From positions 1-64,000 of the forward strand of contig NZ_QRGR01000005.1 in NCBI RefSeq assembly GCF_003367245.1: a DNA stretch of 64,000 nt, in the 5' to 3' direction. Under the pieces are notes generated by a model. The model searched no databases. It was given only the letters and a program-made list of their open reading frames with translations, and was not told where the DNA came from. Position 1 is the first letter of the stretch. Each line of letters opens with the position of its first letter. The position numbers were made by a program, and so were the translations under genes. The stretch is from Pontibacter diazotrophicus. Its GTDB lineage: Bacteria > Bacteroidota > Bacteroidia > Cytophagales > Hymenobacteraceae. This document shows, one piece after another, positions 4,652-63,245 of the stretch.

Positions 4652-4771
4652 TTTCTGGTATATGCGGATCTGCGTGTGCCTCAAAAAGCATGGATAATAT
4701 GCGGATAGCATCCAACCTTTATCTTTTGCCGGGAGCGCTTGTTTGGTTTTTAAGCCGCAAAGGTAGCAGAC

Positions 4772-5833: not shown

Positions 5834-5918
5834 GGGTGTAATAATACAGAAAATATAGTATATATACTATATAATAACAATTTTATAATAGACGAATATA
5901 TAACGACACTTGTTACGG

Positions 5919-14943: not shown

Positions 14944-15174
14944 AATATTCCTGAACTTGATGTATCATGCAGTTGTCTAATTTGTACCTGCGGCCATAGC
15001 CTTGTTCAGGCTAATTAAAAATAAAGTTGGCTATCAGGGAGTTTCCGGTAAAGCAAATCCCTATCGCGCCGTTGCTGGTAGTTTTGGGTATAAGCTTGTG
15101 TTCTGGCTGGTAAAAACGTACAGAGAAATAATAAAATCAGGTTTATATAATACATTTAGAGAGATTCAGATAAT
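14944..15174. other. Intergenic region without a recognised gene
   Basis: There is no ORF of note and no clear terminator after pyrF. A TAGTTTTG box at 15079-15086 could be a -7 element for the DUF1456 gene, but it would leave a leader of about 90 nt. Confidence 0.4.
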
Positions 15175-15642: not shown

Positions 15643-15671
15643 AACAATTACTCTCCTAAACCCACACTGGC

Positions 15672-18265: not shown

Positions 18266-19608
18266 AGCGGCTGCTACTGATTTTTATTTCCGTTTTGCTT
18301 TTGTTAGCTGTTGGTAAAGTAATAGGCTACTACCTGGAAAACAGGTTATACTTTCATTACATACTTGATGCCTATGTAGAAAGTAGAGAAAGTATAGTCG
18401 AAGACGGCTACACAGACAGAACTTCCTATAAAAAAGGAGATGTGCAGGATGTGTTTATAAATTCGAGGTCTGAAGCAAACTCCCAGTTAAGGCTGTATGA
18501 TATAAATGGAGTTGTTGTGGATAGTGTGCAGGCATTCGTGCAGCCGCAAACAAAAGGACCTAACCCGAGCGAAGAGGGGTATCGTTATCAACGTACTTTC
18601 AGATACAAATTGCCAGCCTTGTCGAGTGGGGTCTACCTGTGGGAAAAGAAAATCCCGTTCACCTTGAAAGGTGAACAAGCAGATGTAGTGGTGGTATACC
18701 CATCTAACACTGTAAATGCCTATAATATATCAGGAGGGAAAAGTTTATATCGTATTTTCTCAGGAAAAACGCATGTGGTGTCGTTTCAGCGACCTATGTT
18801 GCCTGCCGTTTCGTTTTTTGCCGTGGAAGGGCTTAAATGGCTACAGGCTTCACCTTACAACATCAGCTACATAAACGACCAGGATTTAGAAAATCCAGCT
18901 ATCTTAACAGGTGCCAAAGTGCTGCTTATTATCGGGCATAGCGAGTATTGGAGCCGTACTGCCCGCAGGCAAGTGGATGCTTTTATTGACAAGGGCGGCC
19001 ACTGTATGGTCCTGTCAGGCAATACCATGTGGTGGCAGGTTCGCTATGCTGAGGACGGTACAAAGTTGATATGTTATAAAGAAAAACCTGATCCTATCAC
19101 TATAGATAGCCTCAAAACAACCTACTGGAACAGTCCCATATTAAATTATCCTATCACTCCGAGTATCGGTGCAGACTTTTCCAGAGCAGGATATGGTAGA
19201 AAATTCAGGAAGAGTTTCGGTGGTTATAAAATCACACAATCAAGCTCCCCCGTGTTTGCAGGCATCAACTTAAAAGAGGGTGATGTGCTAAAAGTATCCA
19301 CTAAAGAATATGATGGAGCGCCTGTGCTTGGGGAGGAGCCTGACCTTAGGCTCGACACAGAGCAGCTTGGCTTTTACAAAGCAGAACTGTTGGGCTATGA
19401 CAGGGCTTATGATGAACAACCAGGTTATGCCACGTTCATCATCTTTCAGAAAACGCCCACCTCAGGTGTAGTCTTAAATACTGCATCTACAGACTGGTGT
19501 GGGCCACATGGTATTGGAGGCCCGGATTCAGTAGCCATAAGAAAAATTACAGATAACGTGCTAAAGGCCATGCTTTTTAACAAAAATCTCTTCTCTAAAA
19601 CACCTTAA
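18262..19608 (+). CDS. N,N-dimethylformamidase large-subunit-like membrane-anchored protein
   Basis: 448 residues with one N-terminal helix (LLLIFISVLLLLAVGKVIGYYL), then a domain like the C-terminal part of dimethylformamidase beta subunits. Supporting patterns are VVVVYPSNTVNAYN, the large GGKSLYR loop, VLLIIGHSEYWSRTARRQVDAFIDKGG and MVLSGNTMWWQVRY, a glutamine-amidotransferase-like fold with H-S-E-Y-W. It probably faces the periplasm. The substrate is unknown; a role in modifying an exported glycan or peptide is only a guess from the membrane protein it overlaps. Confidence 0.7.
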   Translation: MKRLLLIFISVLLLLAVGKVIGYYLENRLYFHYILDAYVESRESIVEDGYTDRTSYKKGDVQDVFINSRSEANSQLRLYDINGVVVDSVQAFVQPQTKGPNPSEEGYRYQRTFRYKLPALSSGVYLWEKKIPFTLKGEQADVVVVYPSNTVNAYNISGGKSLYRIFSGKTHVVSFQRPMLPAVSFFAVEGLKWLQASPYNISYINDQDLENPAILTGAKVLLIIGHSEYWSRTARRQVDAFIDKGGHCMVLSGNTMWWQVRYAEDGTKLICYKEKPDPITIDSLKTTYWNSPILNYPITPSIGADFSRAGYGRKFRKSFGGYKITQSSSPVFAGINLKEGDVLKVSTKEYDGAPVLGEEPDLRLDTEQLGFYKAELLGYDRAYDEQPGYATFIIFQKTPTSGVVLNTASTDWCGPHGIGGPDSVAIRKITDNVLKAMLFNKNLFSKTP

Positions 19609-44539: not shown

Positions 44540-46102
44540 ATGCAAAGATACGATATTTTATGGGCTGATGATGAGATAGATTTACTCAAGCCGCACATTC
44601 TGTTCCTAGAGGAGCGCGGCTATAACATCACACCCGTGAACAGTGGCACTGATGCCATCGAAGTGTTTCAGGAGAGAACGTTCGACATTGTGTTTCTTGA
44701 CGAGAACATGCCCGGCATCAGTGGCCTCGAAACACTGACAGAGCTGAAGAATATCCGCCCGATGGTGCCGGTAATCATGATCACCAAAAGCGAGGAGGAG
44801 CATATAATGGAGGAGGCCATCGGCTCCCGCATCACGGATTACCTGATCAAGCCCCTCAACCCGAACCAGATCCTGCTGTCAGTAAAGAAGGTGCTCGATA
44901 ACAAGCGGCTCGTGTCGGAGAAGACAAACATGAGTTACCAGCGCGATTTCAGGCAACTGGGTATGGCCTTCGGCGAGCGCCTGAGCTCGCAGGAGTGGGC
45001 TGATATCTATAAAAAGCTAGTATACTGGGAGCTGGAGATAGACGAGACTGAGAATAAAAGCATGGCCGACGTCATCAACATGCAGAAGGATGAGGCAAAT
45101 TCCAACTTTGCCAGGTTCGTGATGGAGAACTACGAAGACTGGATAAACCAGGACTCGGACGATACTCCGCTGATGTCGCACCGCTTGTTTAAGGAGCGGG
45201 TATTCCCGATAATGAAACAGACGGATCGCCCGGTGTACTTTCTGCTAATAGACAACCTGCGCTATGACCAGTGGAAAGTGCTGGAGCCGCTTATCTCGGA
45301 TTACTTCAGCGTAGACCAGGAGGAGATGTTCTATTCCATTCTGCCGACCACTACCGCTTACGCCCGGAATGCCATTTTCTCGGGTATGCTGCCAACCGAG
45401 ATTGTAAAAAAATATCCCAACATGTGGGTGGGCGATGATGAGGAGGAAGGCAAAAACCTGCACGAATCCGATTTCCTGGATATTCAGTTTCAGCAGAACA
45501 AGGTGACGGATAAGCACAGCTACCACAAAATAACGAATGTGGCGGCGGGCCGTGATCTGCTCAGCAAGTTCAGCAACCTGGATAATAATAAGCTCAACGT
45601 TATTGTATATAATTTCGTGGACATGCTTTCGCACGCACGAACCGACAGTAACATGGTGCGCGAACTGGCCCCTGATGAGTCGGCTTACCGATCCATCACA
45701 AAATCCTGGTTCCTGCACTCGCCACTTTACGACACGCTGCGCATGATTGCCGAGAAGAAAGGCAAACTCATTATCACCACCGACCACGGTACCATCCGGG
45801 TAAAGCGCCCTTTCAAGATTATCGGAGACCGCAATACGAACACGAACCTGCGCTACAAACATGGTAAAAACCTGGGCTACACAGATAAAGATGTGTTTAC
45901 GGTGCGCAAACCCGAACGATTTTTCTTGCCTAAAGCCAATGTTTCTACTACGTTTGTGTTCGCAATCGGGGATTCCTTCTTTGCGTACCCGAATAACTAT
46001 AATTACTACGTGAACTTCTATAAAGACACTTTCCAGCATGGGGGCGTGTCGCTGGAGGAGGTCATCATACCGTTTATTACGCTTTCGCCTAAGAATGTAT
46101 AA
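44540..46102 (+). CDS. porX: PorX-type response regulator with PglZ domain
   Basis: 520 residues: a receiver domain (about 1-120) with acidic pocket D10-D11-E12, phosphoacceptor D54 in VFLDENMPG and the conserved Lys in DYLIKPLNP, a helical linker (about 130-225), and a C-terminal alkaline-phosphatase-superfamily PglZ domain with metal-site motifs VYFLLIDNLRYDQW, PTTTAYARNAIFSGM and LIITTDHGTI. This is the architecture of PorX, which with PorY and an ECF sigma factor controls type IX secretion in Bacteroidota. No other por or sigma gene is in the window. Its stop overlaps tsaE. Confidence 0.93.
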   Translation: MQRYDILWADDEIDLLKPHILFLEERGYNITPVNSGTDAIEVFQERTFDIVFLDENMPGISGLETLTELKNIRPMVPVIMITKSEEEHIMEEAIGSRITDYLIKPLNPNQILLSVKKVLDNKRLVSEKTNMSYQRDFRQLGMAFGERLSSQEWADIYKKLVYWELEIDETENKSMADVINMQKDEANSNFARFVMENYEDWINQDSDDTPLMSHRLFKERVFPIMKQTDRPVYFLLIDNLRYDQWKVLEPLISDYFSVDQEEMFYSILPTTTAYARNAIFSGMLPTEIVKKYPNMWVGDDEEEGKNLHESDFLDIQFQQNKVTDKHSYHKITNVAAGRDLLSKFSNLDNNKLNVIVYNFVDMLSHARTDSNMVRELAPDESAYRSITKSWFLHSPLYDTLRMIAEKKGKLIITTDHGTIRVKRPFKIIGDRNTNTNLRYKHGKNLGYTDKDVFTVRKPERFFLPKANVSTTFVFAIGDSFFAYPNNYNYYVNFYKDTFQHGGVSLEEVIIPFITLSPKNV

Positions 46103-48417: not shown

Positions 48418-49209
48418 ATGAGAATTAGTATTTATTGCATTTTACTCGTGCTTATGTCTTCGTCCTGTACGTTATTAAGGACAAGAAACATCGTCTACTT
48501 TAGCGACTTGCCAAAAGACAAACCTATCATTACAGAACAAATAAGTCAGGATAAAGGACCGGTAATAAAACCTGAGGATCTGCTGAGCATTTCTGTGGTT
48601 ACCCTTAACCCTGAGTCTAATATGTTGTTTAATACGGGTGTTCTGCTGCCAGTTGGTGGTAGCACAGGAATGAGGCAACAGCAGCAGGGAGGTAATAACG
48701 ACGCTACCCAAGGCTATCTGGTAGATGACCAGGGGTATATAGAATTCCCGGTTCTGGGCAGGGTAAAGGTAGCTGGTTTAACCCGGGAGGAGGCCAATAA
48801 TAAATTAACCGCTGATCTTCAGGAATATTTGCAGGAGCCAATCGTTAAAGTAAGGTACCTGAATTTCAGGGTAACGGTGATAGGGGAAGTAAGCAACCCT
48901 TCTGTGGTAACAGCAATGGACGATAACATGAATATAATAGAAGCGCTGGGCATGGCAGGAGACTTAACGCTCTATGGCAAGAGGGAGGATGTGCTTGTTA
49001 TTCGGGAAGAGAACGGCACCAGAACAATGGCAAGGCTAAACCTAAATGATAGCAACGTTTTTAAATCCCCTTACTTCAACTTACATCAGAACGATGTAAT
49101 TTATGTAGAGCCCGATAAGGCCAAAGTGGCCGGAACAGGCTTTGTACGGCGTAACTGGGGGTTTGCAGTCGGAATTGTGTCCACTGCACTGTTCCTTTTT
49201 GTTCGATAG
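48418..49209 (+). CDS. Polysaccharide export lipoprotein (Wza-like)
   Basis: Outer-membrane export channel component, 263 residues. Lipoprotein signal MRISIYCILLVLMSSSC (Cys at residue 17), a Poly_export domain (GPVIKPEDLLSISVVTLNPE, GYLVDDQGYIEFPVLGRVKV), an SLBB domain (FRVTVIGEVSNPSVVTAMDD, NIIEALGMAGDLTLYGKRED) and a C-terminal hydrophobic helix (FAVGIVSTALFLFV) that in this phylum is typical. An insert between strands is Gln/Asn-rich (MRQQQQGGNNDA). It heads the exopolysaccharide locus. Confidence 0.92.
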   Translation: MRISIYCILLVLMSSSCTLLRTRNIVYFSDLPKDKPIITEQISQDKGPVIKPEDLLSISVVTLNPESNMLFNTGVLLPVGGSTGMRQQQQGGNNDATQGYLVDDQGYIEFPVLGRVKVAGLTREEANNKLTADLQEYLQEPIVKVRYLNFRVTVIGEVSNPSVVTAMDDNMNIIEALGMAGDLTLYGKREDVLVIREENGTRTMARLNLNDSNVFKSPYFNLHQNDVIYVEPDKAKVAGTGFVRRNWGFAVGIVSTALFLFVR

Positions 49210-49262: not shown

Positions 49263-51602
49263 ATGTCTGAAACCGAATTAGAATTCTCAGAAAACGAATC
49301 TGAACCAGTCAATATTAAAAATCTTATATCTAAATACCTGCGCTACTGGTATTTATTTGTGCTGAGTATTATCCTGTTTCTAGGGGCGGCTTACCTGTAC
49401 GTTCGTTACACTACTCCCCTCTATAGTATCAGCAGTACCTTATTGGTGAAAGATGACAAGCAGGGGCCTACTATGGCTCTGAATGATATGGGTATGTTTG
49501 AGACAACGCAGGGCATCGAAGATGAAATTATCATCTTAAAGTCAAAGAGCCTGATGGAAAGAGCGCTGTCTGAAATGTCTTTGAACGCCACTTATTATGT
49601 AGAGGGGAGGGTGAAAACCATTGAGGTATATGGAGAGGAACTTCCGCTTAAGCTAATAACCAGCAAGTTAGACTCTTCGGCTTTTGGGAGATCGCTTACC
49701 ATTCATATCAAAGATAATACTACGTTTGAACTCGAAGATAATCATGGCAGCGGGACATATAAGTTTGGGCAGGAAATTGAAAGGCCGTACGGAACTTTTA
49801 CCGTTACTGCCCCCCCCAGAGATTCCCGGAGCGAAAGAACTGTTATAGTTATGCTTCATGATATCCGTAAGCTGGCCAGCCAGTACAACAACAGGCTTAT
49901 TGTAAAACCTTATGATAACAGCGGACGTGTGCTGGAGTTAAGCTTGGTTGATCCTGTGCCAGAAAAAGGTATAGATATCATCAACAAAGTAACGGAAGTA
50001 TACGGCAAAGAAATCATTGATGACAAGAGGGTATTAGCTTCCAACACAATAGATTTTATAGATGATAGACTGTTGTATCTCACAGATGAGCTATCTGATG
50101 TTGAGAAGGATGTAGAAAGTTATAAGCGGCAAAATGCAGTGACAGATGTTGCTGCCGCTGGTGGTTTATATGTTGCTAACCAGGATGAATATAGCAAGCA
50201 GCTGGCTGACCTGGCCATTCAGATTGATGTGTTAGAGTCGATAGAAAGTTATTTGAACAATGAGGAGAATCAGTATGAACTAGTACCTAGCTCCCTTAAT
50301 ATAAATGATCCTACGCTTAATAGTCTGATAGGAAATTTCAATCAATTGCAACTTGAGCGCCAGCGTATTCTGCGTACCACAAGGCCTAATAACCCTATTG
50401 TAGCAAGTGTAGACGAGCAGTTAGAGAACCTGAAAGGCAACATACAGGAAAACATACAGAATATAAGGCAAGGCCTTTCTATTACCAGAGAGAGTCTACA
50501 GACAAGGGCGTCTGCATCCAGATCCGGGATTCAGCAGGTGCCAACTATGGAACGGGAACTGCTGGAGATTAACCGGGATCAGGCCATCAAGACAAACGTT
50601 TACTTATACCTCCTGCACAAGCGGGAAGAGGCCGCCATATCGCTTGCTGCCACAGTGTCTAACTCCAGGGTTATCGATCCGGCTACTGCATCGGGGCCGG
50701 TGCACCCTCAAACGCAAATGGTGTACCTGATAGCTTTGCTGGCAGGTATTGCTGTGCCATTTGCAGGCATCACGGTTAAGAACATGTTGAATGATACTGT
50801 AGAGCAGACACGCGATGTAGAGCAGGCAACCGCTACTCCTGTGCTGGGAGAGCTTAACAACAGCGGCACCAACGAAACGCTTGTAGTAACACAGGACAGC
50901 AGAAGCCCGATAGCGGAGCAGTTCAGGCTAATACGCTCTAACCTGCAGTTCGCCACTGCCGGAAAAGAAAACAAGGTGATTTTGGTTACTTCCAGTATGA
51001 GCGGCGAGGGTAAAACTTTCTTCAGTGTGAACTTGGCCTCCAGCCTGGTACTTACGGGCAAAAGGGTAGTTGTGGTGGGCTTCGACCTTAGAAGGCCTGC
51101 CCTGACAGAGAGGCTGGGGTTGCCCAATAATCTGGGTATAACAAACTATCTAATCTCTGACACAATGCCTGTAGAAGAAATTCTGCAGCCAATGCCAGAT
51201 TTGCCGGGGCTGTCTATTGTTGGGGTAGGGCCGGTTCCGCCTAACCCTGGAGAATTTATCATGCTGCCGGAAGTAGGGGAGTTGATAAATGACTTGAAGG
51301 CGAGGTTTGATTACGTTATTATAGATACAGCACCAGTTGGGCAGGTTGCCGATGCTTTAGCATTAACCCCTTATACCGACTCGTGCATTTATATGGTGCG
51401 CTACAACTATACCAGTAAATCGCAGCTGGCCATTGTGGATGACCTTTACAAAAGCAAAAAAGTGAAGCACCCTATGATTGTACTGAACGACGCTAAAAAG
51501 GAAAACGGCAGTTACGGCTACGGTTATGGCTACGGCTACGGCTACATGGAGGAGAAAAAGCCAAGCTGGCGGAAGAAAATGGCTAAAATGTCTTTATGGT
51601 AA
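49263..51602 (+). CDS. Wzc-like polysaccharide co-polymerase and tyrosine kinase
   Basis: Inner-membrane BY-kinase that sets chain length and drives export, 779 residues. Order: Wzz domain with helix YWYLFVLSIILFLGAAYLYV (about 29-48), a long periplasmic coiled coil, GNVR-type motif VPTMERELLEINRDQ, second helix MVYLIALLAGIAVPFAGI (about 493), and a cytoplasmic kinase with Walker A SSMSGEGKTFFSVNLA, Walker A' VVVVGFDLRRPAL and Walker B YVIIDTAPVG. The C-terminal tail is a Gly-Tyr repeat (GYGYGYGYGYGY) that would be the autophosphorylation cluster. An 8-C run lies in the coding region at 49810-49817. Confidence 0.94.
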   Translation: MSETELEFSENESEPVNIKNLISKYLRYWYLFVLSIILFLGAAYLYVRYTTPLYSISSTLLVKDDKQGPTMALNDMGMFETTQGIEDEIIILKSKSLMERALSEMSLNATYYVEGRVKTIEVYGEELPLKLITSKLDSSAFGRSLTIHIKDNTTFELEDNHGSGTYKFGQEIERPYGTFTVTAPPRDSRSERTVIVMLHDIRKLASQYNNRLIVKPYDNSGRVLELSLVDPVPEKGIDIINKVTEVYGKEIIDDKRVLASNTIDFIDDRLLYLTDELSDVEKDVESYKRQNAVTDVAAAGGLYVANQDEYSKQLADLAIQIDVLESIESYLNNEENQYELVPSSLNINDPTLNSLIGNFNQLQLERQRILRTTRPNNPIVASVDEQLENLKGNIQENIQNIRQGLSITRESLQTRASASRSGIQQVPTMERELLEINRDQAIKTNVYLYLLHKREEAAISLAATVSNSRVIDPATASGPVHPQTQMVYLIALLAGIAVPFAGITVKNMLNDTVEQTRDVEQATATPVLGELNNSGTNETLVVTQDSRSPIAEQFRLIRSNLQFATAGKENKVILVTSSMSGEGKTFFSVNLASSLVLTGKRVVVVGFDLRRPALTERLGLPNNLGITNYLISDTMPVEEILQPMPDLPGLSIVGVGPVPPNPGEFIMLPEVGELINDLKARFDYVIIDTAPVGQVADALALTPYTDSCIYMVRYNYTSKSQLAIVDDLYKSKKVKHPMIVLNDAKKENGSYGYGYGYGYGYMEEKKPSWRKKMAKMSLW

Positions 51603-51693: not shown

Positions 51694-53001
51694 ATGTCGC
51701 TAGGCAGAACCGAAACAGAAGAAACAATTATTGCGGTAATCGGGCTGGGGTACGTTGGCTTACCACTTGCTGTTGAATTTGCAAAGAAATACAAAACATT
51801 TGGCTTCGATATAAATGCACAGAGAGTTGCAGAGCTAACAGAAGGGAAGGATCAGACACTGGAGGTTTCGGAGGAAGAACTTAAGAAAGTTATAGTGAGC
51901 GATAGCACCGCTGGCAAGGGATTAATCTGCACAGACCAGCTAGGTAACATCGAAGCTGCCAACTTTTTTATCATCACAGTGCCTACTCCGGTAGATAAAC
52001 ATAATCGCCCGGACCTCACACCATTGTATAAAGCCAGTGAAACAGTTGGAAAAGTATTGAAGCGCGGCGATATCGTAGTATATGAGTCTACGGTGTACCC
52101 TGGCGTTACGGAAGAGGAGTGTGTGCCTGTGCTGGAAAAAGTATCCGGCTTAGAGTTTAATGTTGATTTTTTTGCTGGTTACTCACCAGAACGAATCAAC
52201 CCCGGAGACAAAGAGCACACAGTTGCCAAAATTCTTAAAATTACGTCGGGGTCTACACCTGAAGCGGCAGAAAAAGTAGACAAGCTTTACAACTCTGTGA
52301 TTTTAGCGGGTACGCACAAAGCTACATCAATAAAAGTAGCAGAAGCTGCCAAAGTAATCGAGAATGCGCAGCGTGATATCAACATTGCTTTCGTAAACGA
52401 ATTGGCTAAGATTTTTAACCGCCTGGGAATTGACACAGACGAGGTACTTCAAGCTGCCGGAACAAAATGGAATTTCCTGAATTTTAAGCCGGGCCTTGTT
52501 GGGGGGCATTGTATTGGTGTAGACCCGTATTACCTGGCTCAAAAAGCACAGGAGGTCGGTTATCATCCGGAGATTATCCTGGCAGGGCGCCGTCTTAACG
52601 ACGGTATGGGCGAGTACGTGGCACACGAGGTCATTAAGCTGATGGTAAAAAAGGATATTCCTGTAAAAGGAGCCAATATTCTGGTGCTGGGTATCACTTT
52701 TAAAGAGAACTGCCCTGATGTGCGGAACACCAAAGTTGTGGATATTTTACGCACACTCAAAGAATACCAGACGAATATCACCATTTATGATCCCTGGGCT
52801 GAGCCTGATGAGGTAAAGCATGAATATGGTTGGGAATCAGTGAGAGAACTTGGTAATATATCAGACTGCGATGCCATTGTATTGGCGGTATCACATAACG
52901 AATTCAAACACCTCGACTTACAGAAGCTTTGCAAAGCCAATGCTGTTATTTACGATGTAAAAGGAGCCTTGCCAAAAGCCATGGCTGACGCAAGACTATA
53001 A
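51694..53001 (+). CDS. UDP-GlcNAc-type nucleotide sugar dehydrogenase (TviB/WbpO-like)
   Basis: Oxidises C6 of a UDP-N-acetylhexosamine to the uronic acid. 435 residues: [18 protein letters not shown] (Rossmann), [52 protein letters not shown], and the catalytic cysteine in [19 protein letters not shown], then [17 protein letters not shown]. Sequence style is that of TviB/WbpO rather than UDP-glucose dehydrogenase. With the epimerase downstream it would supply an N-acetylgalactosaminuronic acid-type precursor. Confidence 0.88.
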
Positions 53002-53117: not shown

Positions 53118-54098
53118 GTGTACGAAACAAAACACCACTCAGAAGACTTAAGCAAGTTTTCCTTTCTTGTAACAGGTGGCGCCGGTTTTATCGGTTCTAA
53201 CCTAGTAGAATACCTGCTGAAATATGGCGCAAATAAAGTACGGGTGCTCGATAATCTAGCTACCGGGTCACAGTCAAACATACAAGCCTTTAAAGACAAT
53301 CCTGCTTTTGAATTTATGGAGGGGGATATCCGGGATCTGGAGATTTGCCGGCAAGCCTTAGAGGGAGTAGATTATGTTTCGCATCAGGCGGCTCTTGGTT
53401 CTGTGCCCCGTTCCATCAACGACCCTGTCACCACCAATGAGGTGAACATCAATGGCTTTTTAAACATGCTGGTTGCTGCCCGGGATGCTGGCGTGAAGCG
53501 TATGGTGTATGCCGCCAGCTCCAGCACGTATGGTGACCATCCCGGCTTGCCAAAAGTAGAGGAGGAGATCGGTAATCCCTTATCACCTTACGCGGTTACA
53601 AAATATGTGAATGAGTTGTATGGCAGCGTCTTTTCCAAGACGTATGACTTTCATACCATAGGGCTCCGTTATTTCAATGTTTTCGGGCCAAAGCAAAACC
53701 CGCAGGGACCTTATGCTGCCGTTATTCCACTGTTTATTGAAGCGGCCCTTCGTAAAGAAGCTCCTTATATAAATGGTGACGGGGAAACCAGCCGTGACTT
53801 TACATTTGTAGAGAATGCCGTGCAGGCAAATGTAAAAGCCATGCTTGTGCCCGAAGTAAAGGAGCATGAAGTCATCAATATTGCTTTCGGTGAACGTACT
53901 ACTTTAAACCAGCTCTGGGAGAAGATCAGTAACATTGCAGATGTGAACGTAGCACCCCAATACCGGGAAGAACGAAAGGGAGACGTAAAGCATAGCCTGG
54001 CAGACATTTCTAAAGCAAAGGAACTGATTGGGTATAACCCGGAGTATTCTGCCTTGCAAGGCCTGCAGATTGCGGTGGACTGGTACGCTGCAAGATAA
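53118..54098 (+). CDS. UDP-N-acetylglucosamine 4-epimerase (TviC/WbpP-like SDR)
   Basis: Extended short-chain dehydrogenase, 326 residues, GTG start. [18 protein letters not shown] (NAD site) near residue 18, [15 protein letters not shown], the catalytic Ser-Tyr-Lys set in [13 protein letters not shown] and [12 protein letters not shown], and [18 protein letters not shown]. This matches the WbpP/TviC group that interconverts UDP-GlcNAc and UDP-GalNAc or their uronic acids. It pairs with the dehydrogenase upstream, as in Vi and O6 antigen loci. Confidence 0.88.
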
Positions 54099-54478: not shown

Positions 54479-55417
54479 ATGGACATAAAAGTTTCAGTCG
54501 TTATACCAACGTTCAATAGGGAAGATTTGATCAGTGAGACTCTGGATTCTGTTCAATCGCAAACCTTACCTGATTGGGAATGCCTTATAGTAGATGATGG
54601 TTCCACTGACGAGACTGAAGCAATAGTACAGCGATACGCGCAGGCAGACCCCCGTTTCAAGTATGTAAAACGGCCACCTGACAGGTCGAAGGGAGGCAAC
54701 ACCTGCAGAAACATAGGCTTAGAACTGGCAAAAGGGGAGTTTATACAGTTTCTGGATTCAGACGATTTGCTTGCCCCCACCAAATTTGAAGAGCAGGTTC
54801 GTGCCCTCAGCACCAGCGAACCCCATGCAGTGGCTACCTGTAAGTGGGGCCGTTTCAGGACTTCTGAGGATGAACTGAGTGCCAAGCCAAACGAGCCTAC
54901 TTACGTCAGCACCGAAGGTCCTTTGGAGCTATTCAATATTTTTGGCAAGCACAGCATCTGGTTCCCCCCCCACGTGTACCTGGTAAGGAAAAAAACAATT
55001 GAAGAGGCTGGCTACTGGAACGAAGACCTGAAGATGAACCAGGACGGGGAGTTCTTTGCTCGGGTGCTCTTATGTGCCTCCCAAATTGTTTTTGTGCCCA
55101 CTGCGGAAGTGTACTACAGGCGCCATACCGGCAGCAACACCAGCACCTGGAACAAAGAGGACAGGGTAAGAAGCATGATTACGAGCTGGAAGATTATAGA
55201 TGCTGCTATTCAGAAGAAGTTTGGTATTGCCAACCATCCTTATGTAAAACAGGCCAGAAACCTAATCTACAATAATGTCAAAGACCGGTTTCCTGAGATT
55301 ATCCGGGAGAACCAGGACTTCTTTAAATTAAAGCGATCCTGGTTTGAAGAGTTTTCTATAAAAGCTAACTCAAGATTGCAGCTGCTGTACCTTAAAAAAA
55401 TAAAAGGCACTTCCTGA
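54479..55417 (+). CDS. Family 2 glycosyltransferase
   Basis: GT-A fold inverting transferase, 312 residues, no membrane helix, so a cytosolic enzyme adding a sugar to a lipid-linked repeat unit. VSVVIPTFNREDLISETL at the start, WECLIVDDGSTDETEAIV, KGGNTCRNIGLELAKGEFIQ, the metal-binding LDSDDLLAP, and the catalytic-base region MNQDGEFFARVL. A tract of seven Cs (54964-54970, codons for F-P-P) lies inside the gene. Donor and acceptor are unknown. Confidence 0.92.
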   Translation: MDIKVSVVIPTFNREDLISETLDSVQSQTLPDWECLIVDDGSTDETEAIVQRYAQADPRFKYVKRPPDRSKGGNTCRNIGLELAKGEFIQFLDSDDLLAPTKFEEQVRALSTSEPHAVATCKWGRFRTSEDELSAKPNEPTYVSTEGPLELFNIFGKHSIWFPPHVYLVRKKTIEEAGYWNEDLKMNQDGEFFARVLLCASQIVFVPTAEVYYRRHTGSNTSTWNKEDRVRSMITSWKIIDAAIQKKFGIANHPYVKQARNLIYNNVKDRFPEIIRENQDFFKLKRSWFEEFSIKANSRLQLLYLKKIKGTS

Positions 55418-55561: not shown

Positions 55562-56150
55562 TAGCCAAAGCGCCTACGCATGCTGCTTAGGCGCTTCTTC
55601 CCCAAGGCTGTTTCCTACACCCAGTTCCTCTCCCTTGCCCGCCAGAGCTGCTTCCACGCCTTCCTCTTGGCCCAATGCCGCAGCAGCCTCTCCGCCCGCA
55701 CCGGCCACTACTACGTCAACTCTAAGAAGCTGCCCGTCTCGATAATCTCAGGATACACTCCCACAGGGTCTTAGAGGGGATAGCCAGCCGCGGGAAAAGC
55801 TCCACCGGCTGGTTCTTCGGCCTTAAGCTGCACCTGGTCACTAAGGTCAGGAAGAACATGAAAAATATATGCTCCTTACCCTCTGAGATAAGCTCGATCT
55901 GATGAAAAGAGGGGGCATAGAGGCCGTTAATGACATTCTCATGACTGTCTGTAACATCGACCAAACCCGCCACAGAAATCTTTTGGCAGAAGAGCAGCTT
56001 GCTACAGCTACCGGCAAGGCTGCAGCGGGCATCTCCCTCAAGCTTGAGTATTCTGCCAGGCTTCCGCTCCAGGTCGTGGTGCTGAAAATACTGCTGGCAG
56101 AGCGGCCCGAATTCGCAGAGAAGAGGCATAAACTCTTCTGGCTGTAGGCT
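55562..56150 (+). pseudogene. Decayed IS982-type transposase
   Basis: Fragments of one transposase are spread over different frames. From 55580: LLRRFFPKAVSYTQFLSL, an IS982 N-terminal pattern. From about 55776: GIASRGKSSTGWFFGLKLHL, the central motif of IS982 transposases, then a stop at about 55900. From about 55912: IEAVNDILMTVCNIDQTRHR, the C-terminal NIDHTRH motif. Internal stops and frame changes show it is dead. No terminal inverted repeats or target duplication could be identified. It separates the glycosyltransferase from the sulfotransferase part of the locus. Confidence 0.75.
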
Positions 56151-56818: not shown

Positions 56819-57682
56819 ATGCACAAACTATACAACTGTATCATTCTTTCCACAAAGTCAGCAGGCTCTAGTGCGCTGCAGCAATTCCTTGTGCAGGATT
56901 TTGGTTTTAAAATGACAAAAAAAGTCCGGCATCATGAGAATGAAACCTTATTTTGGGCAAAAGCAACTTCTATACTAAGGCTTCCCCAGCAAAAGTTGCA
57001 TAGGAGCAAACTACCTTATTCATATGATAAAGCCTTTGAAAGCCTGCAAAAGTTTGTCAGTGAAAATGAACTAGGCAACCTGACATCTGGCAACGTGACA
57101 AGGGAAGAAATATTCAACCTATATTCCCGGCTTATACAGCAAAATCAGCCTCGTTTTGTTGAGAAGAGCCCACATCATCTTTTTAACAAGAGTAATTTAG
57201 ACCTGATAAGCGAGTATATTTCTCTTCACAAAAATGATATCGACTTTAAGGTCATAGGCTTAGTCCGACATCCTCTTTCTGTTATATATTCAGGTTGGGA
57301 CAGGTGGAAGTTTGATTGCAGACTGTTTGAAAACGAATGGTATACATCCAATCAAAACCTGTTGCACTACCAGAAAGAACTGGACATTGAGATTGTTCGC
57401 TATGAAGACCTGGTGGCAGAAAACGGGGCGTTCATGCAAGAAAAGTTAAACCTGGAGCCTGTCTCAAACAATTTCCATTTCAGGAGCTCTTCTCTTTATA
57501 AGTGGAAAACAGATGATAAATTTGGGCACGAGCTAAGTGATGAAACAAAGCAACTGGCCGCCAATTTCGGATATAGTGACTTTGAAACTCCCTATAACAA
57601 TTTGTCGTGGAAAATTAAAGAAATGGCAACGTATGCTGGTGTCGAGATAAAGCGGTTGTTACGCTCAAATGATGTGGCTTAG
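56819..57682 (+). CDS. Sulfotransferase family protein
   Basis: PAPS-dependent transfer of sulfate to a hydroxyl or amino group, here probably of a carbohydrate. 287 residues. The 5'-phosphosulfate loop is IILSTKSAGSSALQQFL near residue 9, the 3'-phosphate site is VIGLVRHPLSVIYSGWDRWK near residue 148, and FVEKSPHHLFN carries a conserved Lys-Ser between them. No signal peptide, so it acts in the cytosol. The gene is A+T-rich relative to its neighbours. It sits between polysaccharide genes and a complete PAPS-forming operon, which supports sulfation of the polysaccharide. Confidence 0.85.
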   Translation: MHKLYNCIILSTKSAGSSALQQFLVQDFGFKMTKKVRHHENETLFWAKATSILRLPQQKLHRSKLPYSYDKAFESLQKFVSENELGNLTSGNVTREEIFNLYSRLIQQNQPRFVEKSPHHLFNKSNLDLISEYISLHKNDIDFKVIGLVRHPLSVIYSGWDRWKFDCRLFENEWYTSNQNLLHYQKELDIEIVRYEDLVAENGAFMQEKLNLEPVSNNFHFRSSSLYKWKTDDKFGHELSDETKQLAANFGYSDFETPYNNLSWKIKEMATYAGVEIKRLLRSNDVA

Positions 57683-57867
57683 TTAGCTTAGCGTGCTCGC
57701 AAATAAGAATTAGCAAGTCTGCCGGAAAAATATAATATTGCCCATATAAAGGCAGACATAGACATAAGATCAGGCTGAGAGGATGTAAACACGCTATGTA
57801 GAAGCATCAAAATCTGGTTGCTATTGTTCACCTCTCAGCTGAGCATATACAAAGTATTAAGTTAGAA

Positions 57868-58653
57868 ATGGATTTAAGTAAACTTATTTCTTCAGCTGCT
57901 ATCGAAGCAGGTATAAAAATATTAAAAATCTATGAACAAGAATTTACTGTAGAATACAAATCAGATGAGTCTCCTCTAACGCTTGCAGATAAAATGGCAC
58001 ATGAGGTAATAGTGTCCTTCCTGGAAAAAACACCATACCCTGTATTAAGCGAAGAAGGCAGCCGCATTCCGTTTGAGGACAGAAAGAACTGGCCTTCTTA
58101 CTGGCTCATCGACCCGCTGGATGGAACCAAGGAGTTTGTAAAGCGCAACGGAGAATTTACCGTAAACATCGCCCTGATAAAAAACAATGTTCCTGTGCTG
58201 GGGGTAGTATATGCCCCTGTAAAGCAGTGGCTGTATGTTGGTGCATCGGGAGAAGGAGCCTGGAAACTGGAGCTAACCGAACATCAGCTCCCTGATAACT
58301 GGAAGGAGGCAGGGAAAAGTCTGCCTTTAAAAGCCGCTGAGGGCAGAAAGTATACGGTAGTAGGAAGCCGATCCCACAGGTCCGAAGAAACAGAAGCGTT
58401 TGTAGCCAGGCTGCAGGAAGAGCATGGCGAGGTGGCCTTTGTGTCGATGGGCAGCTCTCTGAAGCTTTGTTTGGTGGCAGAGGGAGTGGCAGATATCTAC
58501 CCACGCCTGGCGCCTACCATGGAGTGGGACACGGCAGCAGGAGATGCCATAGCGCGCAGCGCTGGCTGCAGCGTAGTGCAATATCATACTGGAACACCGC
58601 TGCAATACAACAAGGAAAACCTGTTGAATCCCTGGTTTGTAGTGAAGCGTTAA
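57868..58653 (+). CDS. cysQ: 3'(2'),5'-bisphosphate nucleotidase
   Basis: Hydrolyses PAP, the product left after sulfotransfer, to AMP and phosphate, so preventing product inhibition. 261 residues of the inositol monophosphatase-like fold: SPLTLADKMAHEVI, metal site LSEEGS, IDPLDGTKEFVKRNGEFTVNIALI, and the C-terminal MEWDTAAGDAIARSAG. It begins the sulfate-activation operon and its stop shares a base with the next ATG (TAATG). Confidence 0.94.
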   Translation: MDLSKLISSAAIEAGIKILKIYEQEFTVEYKSDESPLTLADKMAHEVIVSFLEKTPYPVLSEEGSRIPFEDRKNWPSYWLIDPLDGTKEFVKRNGEFTVNIALIKNNVPVLGVVYAPVKQWLYVGASGEGAWKLELTEHQLPDNWKEAGKSLPLKAAEGRKYTVVGSRSHRSEETEAFVARLQEEHGEVAFVSMGSSLKLCLVAEGVADIYPRLAPTMEWDTAAGDAIARSAGCSVVQYHTGTPLQYNKENLLNPWFVVKR

Positions 58654-60425
58654 TGTTTGAACTGCCTATCGAAAAATGGATTACGATAGCTGTGCTGGTG
58701 TGGAGCGTAGTAGGCTTGCTACTAGACAAAATCCGCCCGGCGCTGGTCTTTCTCAGCGGCGTTATCGTGCTGCTGCTCGGGCAGGTGGTACAGCCTGCTG
58801 ATTTTCTGCTAAGCCTGAGCAACGAATCCATTATCACAATTTTTCTGTTAATTTTCATCACCGCCGGCATAAAGAACCACTTCAACCTGATTGGTCTTCT
58901 GAACAGGCTGTTCAGGACAGCCAGGAGCCCAAGGGCATTCATGATACGTATGACAGCCGGCGTGTCCGTTCTTTCCTCTGTTATCAACAACACGCCTGTT
59001 GTCGCCCTGATGATTCCGTATGTATATCAGTGGTCGAAACGGCACAAGGTGGCTCCTTCCAAACTCCTGATCCCGCTGTCTTTTGCCGCTATTATTGGCG
59101 GCATGATGACGGTGATAGGCACCTCTACCAACCTGGTGCTGAATGGCTTTATTCTTTCACGGGAGCCTGAAGGGCTGGGGTTTCTGGATTTCTTCCTGCC
59201 AGGGGTGCTGGTAACGGCAGTTGGGCTCTCTTTTTTAGCTACTGTTGGGTACAGGTTGTTGCCCTCCCGGATAAATCCGATGGACGAATTTAAAACCAAT
59301 GCCCGTGAATATCTCGTAGAAACCCTTATTGAAGAAGAATCTGAGTTGGCCGGCAAGAGTGTTGTTGAAGCTAACCTGCGAAACCTGGAGGGAATCTATC
59401 TTTTCGAAATTGTCAGAAAAGGGAAGGGGATCAGCCCGGTAACGCCCGGAGAGGTGCTGCAGGTAGGCGACCACCTGTATTTTGCCGGAGATACTGAAAA
59501 AGTAGTGGATTTATTGCGGCAGGACAACGGCCTGCAAATACCGCATTCTGGTAAGTTGGGCATTGCAAAGCATGTGAACCTGGTGGAAACGGTGGTGCCG
59601 CGGAACAGCGAACTAACTGGCCGCACGTTAAAACAGAGCCAGTTTCGGGATAAGTATGACGCTGCTGTTGTCGCCATTCACCGGAAGGGAGAGAATCTGA
59701 ACGGCAAAATAGGCGCTATAGTGCTGGAGCCGGGAGATCTGTTGCTCATATCTGCGGGCCAGAAGTTTCTTTCGCGTAACAAAAACAACAAAGATTTGTA
59801 CACTGTATCTGTTGTGTCCAGAACAAATGGCACTGCTAACTGGAAGAAAGCAGTTTTTGGCATCGGTACCTTAGTGTCGCTGGGGTTGATGGCAGCAGGC
59901 TTTTTCAGCCTGTTTTTCAGTCTTTTTCTGGTGTGCGCGCTCATGGCGGTTACAGGCCTCCTCCGGGTGGAGGAAATTAAGGATTTGCTCGACCTGGATT
60001 TGCTGATTATTCTGGCAAGTGCCTTAACACTAAGCAAAGCGCTGATTAATACAGGCGTCGCACAGGAACTGGCAACACTTGTTATTCTTTTTTTTCAGGA
60101 TGGAGGGAAATACGGGGTGCTGATAGGCTTGTTCATCATTACCGTTTTGCTTACCTCGTTTATAACGAATGTGGCGGCTGTTTCCATTGCTTTCCCGATT
60201 GCGTATTCTCTAAGCCATGACATGGGGCTCGATCCAACCGGCTTTTACGTCGCGATTGCCTTCGGTGCTTCTGCCAGCTTTCTAACTCCTGTAGGGTACC
60301 AGACTAACCTCATGATCTATGGTCCGGGGTCTTATAAGGCAACTGATTTTCTAAAAATAGGCGTACCGTTTACCCTATTATATTCTATAACTTGTATAAC
60401 CTATATTATACTTATGTACTTCTAA
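58653..60425 (+). CDS. SLC13-family anion permease with RCK_C domains
   Basis: 590 residues from ATG 58653 (MFELPIEKWITIAVLVWSVV), overlapping the cysQ stop by one base; the longer frame from 58467 lies inside cysQ. About eleven helices are interrupted by two TrkA-C/RCK_C regulatory domains (about residues 215-370, for example GKSVVEANLRNLEGIYLFEI and NSELTGRTLKQSQF). The transport motifs SVINNTPVVALMIPYVY and MTVIGTSTNLVLNGF, and the second half TSFITNVAAVSIAFPIAYS, mark the SLC13/CitMHS fold. In a PAPS operon its substrate is very probably sulfate. Confidence 0.88.
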   Translation: MFELPIEKWITIAVLVWSVVGLLLDKIRPALVFLSGVIVLLLGQVVQPADFLLSLSNESIITIFLLIFITAGIKNHFNLIGLLNRLFRTARSPRAFMIRMTAGVSVLSSVINNTPVVALMIPYVYQWSKRHKVAPSKLLIPLSFAAIIGGMMTVIGTSTNLVLNGFILSREPEGLGFLDFFLPGVLVTAVGLSFLATVGYRLLPSRINPMDEFKTNAREYLVETLIEEESELAGKSVVEANLRNLEGIYLFEIVRKGKGISPVTPGEVLQVGDHLYFAGDTEKVVDLLRQDNGLQIPHSGKLGIAKHVNLVETVVPRNSELTGRTLKQSQFRDKYDAAVVAIHRKGENLNGKIGAIVLEPGDLLLISAGQKFLSRNKNNKDLYTVSVVSRTNGTANWKKAVFGIGTLVSLGLMAAGFFSLFFSLFLVCALMAVTGLLRVEEIKDLLDLDLLIILASALTLSKALINTGVAQELATLVILFFQDGGKYGVLIGLFIITVLLTSFITNVAAVSIAFPIAYSLSHDMGLDPTGFYVAIAFGASASFLTPVGYQTNLMIYGPGSYKATDFLKIGVPFTLLYSITCITYIILMYF

Positions 60426-60429
60426 TATT

Positions 60430-61038
60430 ATGAGTGAAAAGCTACACATCATACCGCACAAGCACCAGATAAACAGGAGGCTGCGAAACAAGATGAAAGG
60501 ACACCGCTCCTTAGTCATATGGTTTACAGGTTTCTCCGGAAGCGGTAAATCCACCCTTGCCAATGCCCTTGAAGAATACCTGTACGAGCATGGGTACCAC
60601 ACCTTTGTGCTGGACGGCGATAACGTGCGCAAAGGGCTCAACAGCGACCTTGACTTTTCGGATGAAGCCCGCAAAGAGAACATCCGCAGAATAGGAGAGG
60701 TAACAAAGCTGATGGCCGATGCCGGCCTTGTGGTGATGTCAGCTTTCATTTCCCCGTTCAAAGAAGACAGGGAGCGTGTAAGAAGTATAGCGGGAGAAGG
60801 CAACTTTATAGAAGTATTTGTAGACTGCCCTGTGGAAGTGTGCGAGCAGCGGGATACAAAAGGCCTGTACGCAAAAGCACGCAAAGGCGAAATCAGCAAC
60901 TTTACGGGTATCAGCGCTCCTTTCGAGGCGCCTGAAAACCCAGCCATACATATCCAATCAGATAAGGAACCGCTTGATGTATCCGTACAGAAGCTCATTT
61001 CTTACATCAAACCCAAATTGAATTTACCAAATGAGTAA
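60430..61038 (+). CDS. cysC: Adenylyl-sulfate kinase
   Basis: Phosphorylates APS to PAPS. 202 residues with the P-loop VIWFTGFSGSGKSTLANALE near residue 30, DGDNVRKGLNSDLDFSDEAR, the ENIRRIGEVTKLMADAGL helix, and the lid segment RDTKGLYAKARKGEISNFTG. It starts 4 bp after the permease and overlaps cysD by 8 bp. A stand-alone CysC next to cysDN without a cysH points to PAPS as an end product here. Confidence 0.95.
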   Translation: MSEKLHIIPHKHQINRRLRNKMKGHRSLVIWFTGFSGSGKSTLANALEEYLYEHGYHTFVLDGDNVRKGLNSDLDFSDEARKENIRRIGEVTKLMADAGLVVMSAFISPFKEDRERVRSIAGEGNFIEVFVDCPVEVCEQRDTKGLYAKARKGEISNFTGISAPFEAPENPAIHIQSDKEPLDVSVQKLISYIKPKLNLPNE

Positions 61039-61936
61039 TTATTCATTAAGTCACTTAAAAGAGTTAGAGGCAGAGGCCATCTTTGTTATCCGGGAGGTGG
61101 TGGCGCAGTTCGAGTGGCCGGCCATTCTGTTTTCCGGCGGTAAAGACTCTATTGTCGTCACCCATTTGGCCCGCAAAGCTTTTTTTCCTGCCAAAATACC
61201 TATGCCGCTCGTGCATATCGATACCGGTCACAACTTTCCCGAGACCATCGCCTTCCGTGACAACCTGGTAAAAGAACTGGGTGTGCAGCTTATAGTCGGG
61301 TCGGTACAGGAATCGATAGACAAGGGGCTCGTGAAAGAAGAGGGCGGTAGAAACGCCAGCAGAAATGCCCTGCAAACTGTTACCCTGCTGGATGCCATTG
61401 AGCGGAACAAGATTGATGCTGCCATTGGCGGCGCAAGGCGCGACGAAGAAAAGGCAAGAGCCAAAGAGCGCTTCTTCTCCCATCGCGATGATTTCGGGCA
61501 GTGGGACCCCAAAAACCAGCGGCCTGAGCTGTGGAACCTGTTTAACGGCAGAAAGAACATGGGTGAGCATTTCAGGGTGTTCCCTATAAGCAATTGGACG
61601 GAGATGGACATCTGGCAGTATATCCTGACGGAGAACCTCGCCATCCCTTCGCTCTACTTTGCGCATCAGCGGGATGTGATTTACCGCGATGATACCTGGC
61701 TGCCTATGTCGGAGCATATCCGCCTTCGGGATGAGGAGGAGGTGGTGCGCAAGCACATCCGCTTCCGGACACTTGGCGATATTACCATCACCGGCGGTGT
61801 AGAGTCCGATGCCGACACCTTAGATAAAATCATTCTGGAAGTAGCCGCTACGCGCCACACCGAGCGAGGCAACCGGGCCGACGATAAACGCTCTGAAACA
61901 TCCATGGAAGACAGAAAAAAACAAGGCTATTTCTAA
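61031..61936 (+). CDS. cysD: Sulfate adenylyltransferase subunit 2
   Basis: Catalytic subunit of ATP sulfurylase; makes APS from ATP and sulfate. 301 residues of the PP-loop superfamily: AILFSGGKDSIVVTHLA near residue 33, VHIDTGHNFPETIAFRD, AAIGGARRDEEKARAKERFF and WTEMDIWQYILTENLAIPSLYF. It overlaps cysC and is followed after 67 bp by cysN. Confidence 0.96.
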   Translation: MSNYSLSHLKELEAEAIFVIREVVAQFEWPAILFSGGKDSIVVTHLARKAFFPAKIPMPLVHIDTGHNFPETIAFRDNLVKELGVQLIVGSVQESIDKGLVKEEGGRNASRNALQTVTLLDAIERNKIDAAIGGARRDEEKARAKERFFSHRDDFGQWDPKNQRPELWNLFNGRKNMGEHFRVFPISNWTEMDIWQYILTENLAIPSLYFAHQRDVIYRDDTWLPMSEHIRLRDEEEVVRKHIRFRTLGDITITGGVESDADTLDKIILEVAATRHTERGNRADDKRSETSMEDRKKQGYF

Positions 61937-62003
61937 GGGCATGTTTATACTTAATTCTTGAGAAACAGAAAAAAATTAAACAAGCTCTAAAACAGACAAC
62001 ACG

Positions 62004-63245
62004 ATGCAACTATTAAGATTTACAACAGCCGGAAGTGTAGATGACGGGAAAAGCACCCTTATCGGCCGTTTGTTATACGACTCAAAGTCCATTTTCGAAG
62101 ACCAGATGGAAGCCGTCAGAAAGTCGAGCGAGAAGAAGGGCCTGGACCACGTAGACCTGTCCTTATTTACCGATGGCTTGAAAGACGAGCGGGAACAGGG
62201 CATTACCATTGATGTGGCCTACCGCTATTTCGCCACCCCAAAGCGCAAATTTATTATAGCCGACACTCCTGGCCATATACAGTATACCCGTAACATGGTG
62301 ACAGGCGCCTCCACAGCTAACCTGGCCCTCATCCTGCTGGATGCGCGCAACGGTGTGGTGGAGCAAACCTGCCGGCACTCTTTTATCGCTACGCTCCTGC
62401 AAATTCCGCACGTAGTGGTGTGTATCAACAAGATGGACCTGATGGACTACTCTGAGGAGCGTTTTGATGAGATAGTAAAGGAATACACCGAGTTTGCCGC
62501 GAAGCTGAATGTGAAGGATGTCCGCTTTGTGCCCATCAGTGCGCTGCATGGCGATAATGTGGTTAACAGGTCCGACAAAATGAGCTGGTACCAGGGCGAA
62601 ACACTGCTGCACATGCTGGAGACCATCCACATCGGCAATGACAAGAACCTGATCGACTGCCGCTTTCCTGTGCAGACAGTTATCCGGCCGCACAACGATG
62701 AGCATCACGACTACAGGGGCTATGCCGGCCGTGTGGCAGGAGGCGTGTTTAAGCCGGGCGATAAGGTACTGGTAATGCCCTCAGGCTTTAGCAGCACCAT
62801 TAAAAGCATCGACACCTTTGATGGTCCGGTGCAGGAAGCCTTTTCTCCCATGTCGGTGAGCATGACGCTGGAAGATGATATTGATATCAGCCGTGGTGAT
62901 ATGATTGTGCGGGAAAACAACCAGCCGAAAGTGATACAGGACCTGGATGTGATGCTGTGCTGGTTGCATGAGCAGGGCCCTGCCATGCGAGGAAAGTATA
63001 TCCTGCGCCACACAACAAACGAGGTGCGTACCATGATTAAAGAGGTGCTGTATAAGGTGAATGTGAATACGCTGCACCGCATAGAGGATGACAAGGATAT
63101 AAAAATGAACGAAATCAGCCGCGTGCGCCTGCGCACAACAAAGCCGCTGCTCGCTGATGCTTATAACCGCAACCGCCAGACGGGCAGTATCATATTAATA
63201 GACGAAACAACGAATGAAACAGTAGCGGCCGGTATGATTCTGTAA
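62004..63245 (+). CDS. cysN: Sulfate adenylyltransferase subunit 1 (GTPase)
   Basis: GTPase subunit that drives APS formation by CysD. 413 residues, EF-Tu-like: G1 GSVDDGKSTLIGRLLYD, G2 in EREQGITIDVAYRYF, G3 ADTPGHIQYTRNM, G4 INKMDLMDYS, then beta-barrel domains 2 and 3. Unlike many CysN proteins it has no fused CysC, consistent with the separate cysC upstream. Confidence 0.96.
   Translation: MQLLRFTTAGSVDDGKSTLIGRLLYDSKSIFEDQMEAVRKSSEKKGLDHVDLSLFTDGLKDEREQGITIDVAYRYFATPKRKFIIADTPGHIQYTRNMVTGASTANLALILLDARNGVVEQTCRHSFIATLLQIPHVVVCINKMDLMDYSEERFDEIVKEYTEFAAKLNVKDVRFVPISALHGDNVVNRSDKMSWYQGETLLHMLETIHIGNDKNLIDCRFPVQTVIRPHNDEHHDYRGYAGRVAGGVFKPGDKVLVMPSGFSSTIKSIDTFDGPVQEAFSPMSVSMTLEDDIDISRGDMIVRENNQPKVIQDLDVMLCWLHEQGPAMRGKYILRHTTNEVRTMIKEVLYKVNVNTLHRIEDDKDIKMNEISRVRLRTTKPLLADAYNRNRQTGSIILIDETTNETVAAGMIL

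Follow-up and report, generated by a model that had tools for sequence, protein, structure and literature searches.

The first 64,000 nucleotides of contig NZ_QRGR01000005.1 of Pontibacter diazotrophicus (hereafter the window; C47:1-64000 of contig C47, which spans 265,393 bases of a 6.4-Mb genome, G000, in 88 contigs) carry at 56819-63245 the genes for a sulfotransferase (SULT1), the nucleotidase CysQ, an SLC13-type permease, the adenosine 5′-phosphosulfate (APS) kinase CysC and the ATP sulfurylase subunits CysD and CysN. These genes very probably form a dedicated cassette for sulfate activation and for recycling of 3′-phosphoadenosine 5′-phosphate (PAP), one that lies inside an approximately 53-kb polysaccharide locus and serves sulfation. 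The strain probably coats itself with a sulfated polysaccharide, the sulfate in the exported polymer being predicted from sequence. This reading builds on the content, order and conservation of the genes, on the single cysC detected in the genome and on a separate assimilatory gene set; from the same genes we infer a sugar as the sulfotransferase acceptor and the sugar composition of the polymer.

The Sulfate-Activation Cassette

SULT1 (56819..57682; PF13469 27.8 bits, cut-off 27.0) is by family dependent on 3′-phosphoadenosine 5′-phosphosulfate (PAPS), and is followed on the same (+) strand by CysQ, a PAP (3′(2′),5′-bisphosphate) nucleotidase (57868..58653; TIGR01331 285.5 vs. cut-off 228.8), an SLC13/CitMHS-type permease with TrkA-C stretches (58653..60425; PF03600 223.8 bits, PF02080 71.7), CysC (60430..61038; TIGR00455 261.2 vs. 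cut-off 138.7), the small ATP sulfurylase subunit CysD (61031..61936; TIGR02039 422.0 vs. cut-off 396.6) and the GTPase subunit CysN, which lacks a fused kinase (62004..63245; TIGR02034 556.7 vs. cut-off 336.1). ATP sulfurylase and APS kinase thus stand together, each above its NCBIfam cut-off. The permease does not reach the NCBIfam DASS cut-off (108 vs. 198.6), and genomic context suggests sulfate as its substrate. The order, strand and positions are those of the original prediction, an account made from the letters of the window, and its short junctions hold from cysQ through cysN, where successive distances are -1, +4, -8 and +67 bases (from coordinates; gaps positive, overlaps negative) after a SULT1-cysQ gap of +185. 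Its assignments of CysQ, CysC, CysD and CysN are firm by these cut-offs, that of the sulfotransferase barely passes Pfam, and, as it had stated, cysH, cysI and cysJ are all absent from the six genes.

The module so delimited contains its six genes but ends too early. After cysN come a polysaccharide deacetylase (63261-64040, +, crossing the window end at 64000; PF01522 82.9 bits in the window, 82.7 for the whole frame), a second sulfotransferase that it overlaps (SULT2, C47:64030-64890; PF13469 83.9 bits vs. cut-off 27) and a GT4 glycosyltransferase, with junctions of +15, -11 and -4 bases. The original prediction had named a cysH set adjoining beyond 64000, with no polysaccharide genes, as evidence that would count against it; what lies there is more polysaccharide genes and SULT2.

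In the scheme that we propose, the permease would import sulfate, CysD and CysN would form APS, and CysC would convert it to PAPS. SULT1 and SULT2 would then transfer the sulfuryl group in the cytoplasm to repeat-unit sugars or to a lipid-linked precursor, CysQ would clear the resulting PAP, and the polymer would exit via a Wza/Wzc system. Its probable constituents include an aminouronic acid, suggested by the TviB/TviC-like enzymes, and a nonulosonic acid, suggested by LegC-type, NeuB and NeuC.

Sulfur Metabolism Elsewhere in the Genome

A genome-wide search, proposed with the original prediction, located an assimilatory cysH with its own cysD and cysN at C47:158-168 kb, about 100 kb from the cassette on the same contig, and further sulfotransferases. 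Besides the cassette CysD, PF01507 matched only two genes, which are paired at C47:166.4-167.9 kb. The pair comprises CysD2 and a CysH that passes the TIGR02055 APS-reductase cut-off (243.8 vs. 235.3) and carries a CC ... CxxC pattern, which we take to be the iron-sulfur mark of APS reductases. CysN2 adjoins them (cysH, cysD and cysN together at C47:164.9-168.1 kb), and nearby are a sulfite/nitrite-reductase-like protein (under curated cut-offs), CobA and a CysG N-terminal domain. No cysC was found in this set at C47:158-168 kb; the single APS kinase match in the genome is the cassette CysC. An APS-type CysH needs no PAPS, hence no cysC. The cassette does not have the adjacent cysH and sulfite reductase of an assimilatory operon, no CysH-like or sulfite-reductase-like frame being found in C47:54-114 kb (L004-L006), and it stands as a second copy beside a separate assimilatory set.

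With no cysC found in the assimilatory set, no PAPS demand from its APS-type CysH and the sole detected APS kinase in the cassette, sulfation is the obvious destination of PAPS in this genome and most likely what the cassette supplies. Two more sulfotransferases are encoded, at C1:172754-173353 (L013) and C81:166485-167237 (L012). Since the former sits inside a locus with a Wzt-type ABC transporter and glycosyltransferases, a second polysaccharide of the genome may be sulfated too. The sulfation role in the original prediction is supported, but its description of the module as self-contained is too strong, because a single cysC must supply at least four sulfotransferases.

The Two Sulfotransferases

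While SULT2 is a clear family member by score, SULT1 is marginal; it also scores under the cut-off of PF00685 (20.4 vs. 22 bits). Its orthologue in the relative G111 is 65% identical and holds the same position in the locus, and among 50 genomes of the genus no match was found beyond the source genome and G111. Arg150 of SULT1, presumably a PAPS-binding residue, is invariant across 14 aligned sulfotransferases. A predicted model built from 14 sequences gave a moderately confident fold (mean predicted local distance difference test 73.4, predicted template modelling score 0.76). Its best Foldseek match in the PDB is 4gox (E 3.7e-8), followed by tyrosylprotein and heparan 3-O-sulfotransferases (E 1e-4 to 1e-3), with template modelling scores of 0.40-0.50, large root-mean-square deviations (about 8-12 Å) and P-loop kinases from rank 9 onward. 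The SULT1 sequence finds in the PDB, up to E 1, only the CurM sulfotransferase (E 0.00019). By modelled fold and PAPS-binding residue, SULT1 just passes as a predicted PAPS-dependent sulfotransferase.

Remains of a DDE transposase (window 55726-56147, +; PF13612 49.4 and 20.5 bits in two frames, cut-off 27) take up part of the 1.4-kb gap between the upstream GT2 gene and SULT1, genes that are 5 bases apart in G111.

The Polysaccharide Locus

Genes for polysaccharide biosynthesis and export flank the cassette on both sides, among them Wza, Wzc, sugar-nucleotide enzymes and glycosyltransferases. Profile matches bear out the wza/wzc-, TviB/TviC- and glycosyltransferase genes that had been placed upstream, all on the + strand: a Wza-like outer-membrane polysaccharide export protein (48418..49209; PF02563 64.4 bits, SLBB) with a homologue in the G111 locus, a Wzc-like chain-length/tyrosine-kinase protein (polysaccharide co-polymerase; 49263..51602; GNVR, Wzz, AAA_31), a TviB-like nucleotide-sugar dehydrogenase (51694..53001; NF011729 576.2, just under the cut-off of 592; TIGR03026 402, cut-off 189.8), a TviC-like sugar-nucleotide epimerase with a listed GTG start (53118..54098; NF011728 353, under the cut-off of 760; Epimerase 192.5 bits) and the GT2 glycosyltransferase (54479..55417; PF00535 117.8 bits).

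Downstream of GT4 lies a nonulosonate gene set that resembles, by sequence, a legionaminate/sialate-like pathway. Its epimerase is accompanied by a LegC-type aminotransferase (552.8 vs. cut-off 420), a NeuD-type acyltransferase (209.1 vs. 160.8), NeuB (491 vs. 399.65) and NeuC (500.4 vs. 235.9), all four above curated cut-offs, and by a PIG-L deacetylase and a formyltransferase, a nucleotidyltransferase and a cytidylyltransferase, the last three of which do not reach such cut-offs. Further along C47 are an ABC transporter, a pyruvyltransferase and an FrhB-type gene on the opposite strand, and then glycosyltransferases, an Asn-synthase-like gene, an initiating sugar transferase (PF02397), an ATP-grasp protein and a DegT aminotransferase. 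The last gene scanned encodes a large Polysacc_synt_2 protein at about 99.5-101.4 kb, so that the locus spans about 48.4 to at least about 101 kb of C47 (about 53 kb). At window 44540-46102 (+), a response regulator receiver is fused to a PglZ domain, a protein that we assume to be of the PorX type of type IX secretion regulators.

Comparison Within the Family

Within the family, the proposed comparison across genomes links the presence of cysC with that of sulfotransferases and associates the full cassette with polysaccharide loci. Among 120 family genomes, 33 have a strong APS kinase match (E ≤ 1e-10; another 39 genomes with weaker matches were left out of this count), the genes of G006 and G093 being broken or partial. 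These damaged genes, one split by a stop and one without its front half, lie at G006:C1:3788322-3788767 and G093:C8:456312-456542. Sulfotransfer_3 is present in 27/120 genomes, namely 26 of the 33 with strong cysC vs. 1 of the 87 others (Fisher 7e-19; Fisher values here ignore relatedness), and in 20 of these 27 cysC has a sulfotransferase at most 10 kb away. Four single-sequence phmmer queries recovered as sulfotransferases only 11 of 4161 frames, and an iterated profile, which may still miss some, was used instead; because the PF13469 genome search omitted SULT1 in the source genome, the sulfotransferase counts are lower bounds. The lone Sulfotransfer_3 genome without a strong APS kinase match (1/27) is G051, whose sulfotransferase (G051:C1:4530325; L052) is near glycosyltransferase-like and aminotransferase-like genes, with a 28-residue APS kinase match elsewhere in the genome.

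The full cassette, cysQ-permease-cysC-cysD-cysN, occurs in six of the 39 strong cysC regions: in the source genome, in G111, G064 and G083 of the same genus, and in G087 and G075. Polysaccharide markers were tested in 37 of the 39 regions (L042 and L046, on very short contigs, were left out), with queries derived from the source locus and its continuation, which may let distant glycosyltransferases escape; the source locus itself was excluded. Within about 20 kb, at least one marker accompanies 5/5 of the other full cassettes and at least three accompany 4/5. The corresponding counts are 0/21 and 0/21 near assimilatory loci, which have cysH and cysD in 21/21 cases and cysC in 0/21, and 3/20 and 0/20 in 20-kb stretches taken arbitrarily from five genomes. 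Where a lone cysC accompanies a sulfotransferase, the counts are 1/17 and 0/17; the cysC-cysD-cysN loci of genus group g3 reach 0/7 and 0/7 (sulfotransferase 0/7), and the remaining cysC loci reach 2/7 and 1/7 (sulfotransferase 0/7). A sulfotransferase is within the stretch of 5/6 full-cassette loci. The order GT2, SULT1, cassette, deacetylase, SULT2, GT4, nonulosonate genes is kept in G111. The weakest cassette locus is that of G087, where a glycosyltransferase and an O-antigen-ligase-type gene lie about 5 to 6 kb off the cassette; in this locus (L018) large proteins with type IX sorting tails flank the cassette (4293-6290 and 14429-17752), and 18048-18977 has a hyaluronidase-like match under the cut-off.

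The 17 lone-cysC loci (L015, L017, L019, L020, L023-L027, L029-L036) were defined by an adjoining sulfotransferase, so that their sulfotransferase count of 17/17 is by selection. Most have cysQ, and none has cysD or cysN except L029, where these are on the other strand. Their sulfotransferases measure 297-320 amino acids in 16/17 and are mostly on the opposite strand. Both a locus of this type and a full cassette are carried by G064 and G083. The acceptor at the lone-cysC loci is probably another product.

The CysD Lineage and Cassettes Outside the Family

In a FastTree phylogeny of 81 CysD proteins, 21 assimilatory ones (one per locus) and one from L029 were split from 50 cassette ones with support of 0.96-1.0. 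Eight g3 CysD proteins fell on the cassette side, and the six family cassette proteins formed one group (support 0.76; 0.96 for five of them). Because the tree separates both sets, the cassette is not a fresh copy of the assimilatory genes, its CysD being, on sequence, a lineage apart. Recent local duplication of the assimilatory cysD was accordingly rejected.

A permease-profile search gave 72 named loci, 10 of which were dropped as weak or partial permease matches. The 62 loci with a strong permease are all Bacteroidota by record titles, and three are Pontibacter loci already counted in the family. Where the contig leaves room, cysC is directly 3′ of the permease in 54/56 loci (three Pontibacter), with cysD in 41/46, cysN in 38/42 and cysQ in 31/36. 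Flanking sequence of at least 8 kb on each side is available at 33 loci. Polysaccharide markers occur at 19 of them, Wza or Wzc at 11 and a sulfotransferase at 7; once the three from Pontibacter are set aside (n = 30), the marker count is 16 and the sulfotransferase count 4. For a genome-wide Sulfotransfer_3 search, 37 of the 72 loci, mostly on longer contigs, were chosen; 20 of the 36 genomes searched have a match, and 7 of the other 16 carry Sulfotransfer_1 or Sulfotransfer_2. These two families and PF01507 were searched in those 16 genomes only.

Alternative Explanations

Several results weigh against a sulfated polymer as the purpose of the cassette. The sulfation of the polymer is itself read from genes, and because two sulfotransferases lie elsewhere in the genome, PAPS is not reserved for the cassette locus. 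SULT1 is weak by Pfam, and the solved structures nearest to it include enzymes for polyketide chains and for tyrosine besides those for heparan sugars, so that its acceptor may be a sugar or something else. The G075 locus has polysaccharide genes, and no sulfotransferase was found in the stretch read. All seven g3 cysC-cysD-cysN loci are without markers and without a sulfotransferase, and a cysH-like gene is nearby. Beyond the family, 14/33 cassette loci have no polysaccharide marker and 26/33 no sulfotransferase match (14/30 and 26/30 without Pontibacter), and in 9/36 cassette genomes searched none of the three sulfotransferase families tested was found.

Such relatives lend some weight to the view that an operon for assimilation, or for sulfate activation in general, stands here among polysaccharide genes by chance. 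In Zunongwangia profunda, an adjacent APS kinase and ATP sulfurylase set was read by the authors as feeding a PAPS reductase (PMC2864250). A cysH-like gene is beside cysQ and the permease in L061, L066 and L068 (Saprospiraceae/Saprospirales; 3/72 named loci), and about 2 to 5 kb from 7/7 of the g3 loci examined. Cyclobacterium salsum (G144, L098), one of the nine genomes with no match to the three sulfotransferase families, has three PF01507 matches; because the only one of CysD length (C14:24149) sits at the cassette, which would then hold the only CysD found, this cassette probably serves assimilation too. In the source genome, cysH belongs to a second set that brings a cysD, a cysN and a sulfite/nitrite-reductase-like gene of its own, and the one APS kinase detected lies outside that set. 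Textbook knowledge that an APS-type CysH needs no cysC agrees with the 21/21 assimilatory loci examined in the genus without one, and the surrounding 60 kb (C47:54-114 kb) yielded no cysH-like gene. An assimilatory role in the source genome was therefore rejected, with the separate set in existence and the sole detected cysC in the cassette; the explanation is retained in view of the relatives, and we regard it as very unlikely. PAPS might also go mainly to a non-polymer product, such as a sulfolipid or a small molecule, or to glycans of another locus. A similar gene set is beside the sterol sulfotransferase BT_0416 of Bacteroides, which acts on cholesterol (PMC9417993), and of the other sulfotransferases in the source genome, at C81 and C1, the latter is in a locus with a Wzt-type ABC transporter and glycosyltransferases. 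Yet SULT1 and SULT2 lie inside the polysaccharide locus on either side of the cassette, both kept in G111, and full cassettes of the family keep to polysaccharide loci (5/5 others) as opposed to lone-cysC loci with a sulfotransferase (1/17), which makes this option improbable as well.

If sulfation of the local polysaccharide is the role of the cassette, the sulfated polymer would probably combine aminouronic and nonulosonic acids. The locus also supplies natural sulfotransferases that might accept unusual sugars. Genes are known for few sulfated bacterial polysaccharides, and the Pontibacter locus is a clear, testable candidate. It also offers a search rule: sulfotransferases next to a cassette that includes cysC, in a genome where cysH and another cysDN lie elsewhere. 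The rule has a limit, since certain Cyclobacterium and Saprospiraceae genomes show that possession of the cassette is by itself no proof of sulfation, and the cassette was rejected as a stand-alone marker in view of relatives without a sulfotransferase, cysH-like neighbors and the CysD of G144. More speculatively, and with the balance somewhat against it, Bacteroidota could keep an old, separate sulfate-activation lineage (permease, CysC, CysD, CysN, CysQ) that is reused in changing polysaccharide loci, which would make sulfated surface polymers widespread and unrecognized in Cytophagales and relatives.

Comparison With Known Systems

In rhizobia, nodPQ-nodH likewise combines a sulfotransferase with an adjoining paralogous ATP sulfurylase/APS kinase that is reserved for sulfation; it differs from the cassette in its acceptor, a lipochitooligosaccharide, and in NodQ, which fuses CysN and CysC. 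For the comparisons that follow, we take Cobetia marina to be a gammaproteobacterium and BT_0411 of Bacteroides to be cysQ; the likeness to BT_0411-BT_0416 is one of published description, not of sequences.

Within the same phylum, Bt_0411 to Bt_0415 of Bacteroides are described as PAPS enzymes beside a sulfotransferase, with BT_0412 as sulfate importer (PMC9417993). PAPS genes and a putative sulfate importer beside a sulfotransferase are found here too, by comparison with the published text; the system differs in that BT_0416 sulfates cholesterol, and the text examined mentions no polysaccharide locus. The capsule cluster of Cobetia marina KMM 1449, with about 70 genes and a sulfated polymer solved by nuclear magnetic resonance, shares cysD, cysQ, a sulfate permease, sulfotransferase genes and cysN/cysC but has cysN and cysC fused, ABC (Kps) export instead of Wza/Wzc, and other sugars (PMC11766843). 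The capsule cluster of Vibrio sp. KMM 8419 has second copies of cysC, cysN and cysD and three sulfotransferase genes in a polysaccharide locus; it differs in its ABC export and in one sulfotransferase tied to O-antigen, and the text examined mentions neither cysQ nor a permease (PMC11641403). The xss locus of Synechocystis directs synthesis of the exopolysaccharide synechan, which is sulfated; it is of the Wzx/Wzy type and encodes two sulfotransferases, but its gene list has no PAPS genes and the term PAPS has 0 occurrences in the text available (PMC8205485). The original prediction had described sulfated exopolysaccharides as mostly studied in cyanobacteria and rhizobia, to which the published loci of marine Gammaproteobacteria are to be added (PMC11766843, PMC11641403). 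Among the titles and abstract openings listed in a literature search, with subscription journals mostly outside its coverage, none concerned such a locus in Pontibacter or near relatives; in the two Pontibacter papers found, the Pontibacter passages concern a lipopeptide. Overall, this kind of arrangement is already known from Bacteroides BT_0411-0416, Cobetia and Vibrio and is seen here in a new group. The present analysis contributes the recognition of the Bacteroidota cassette as a separate lineage, a controlled comparison that links it to polysaccharide loci within the family, and the instances in which this link breaks down.

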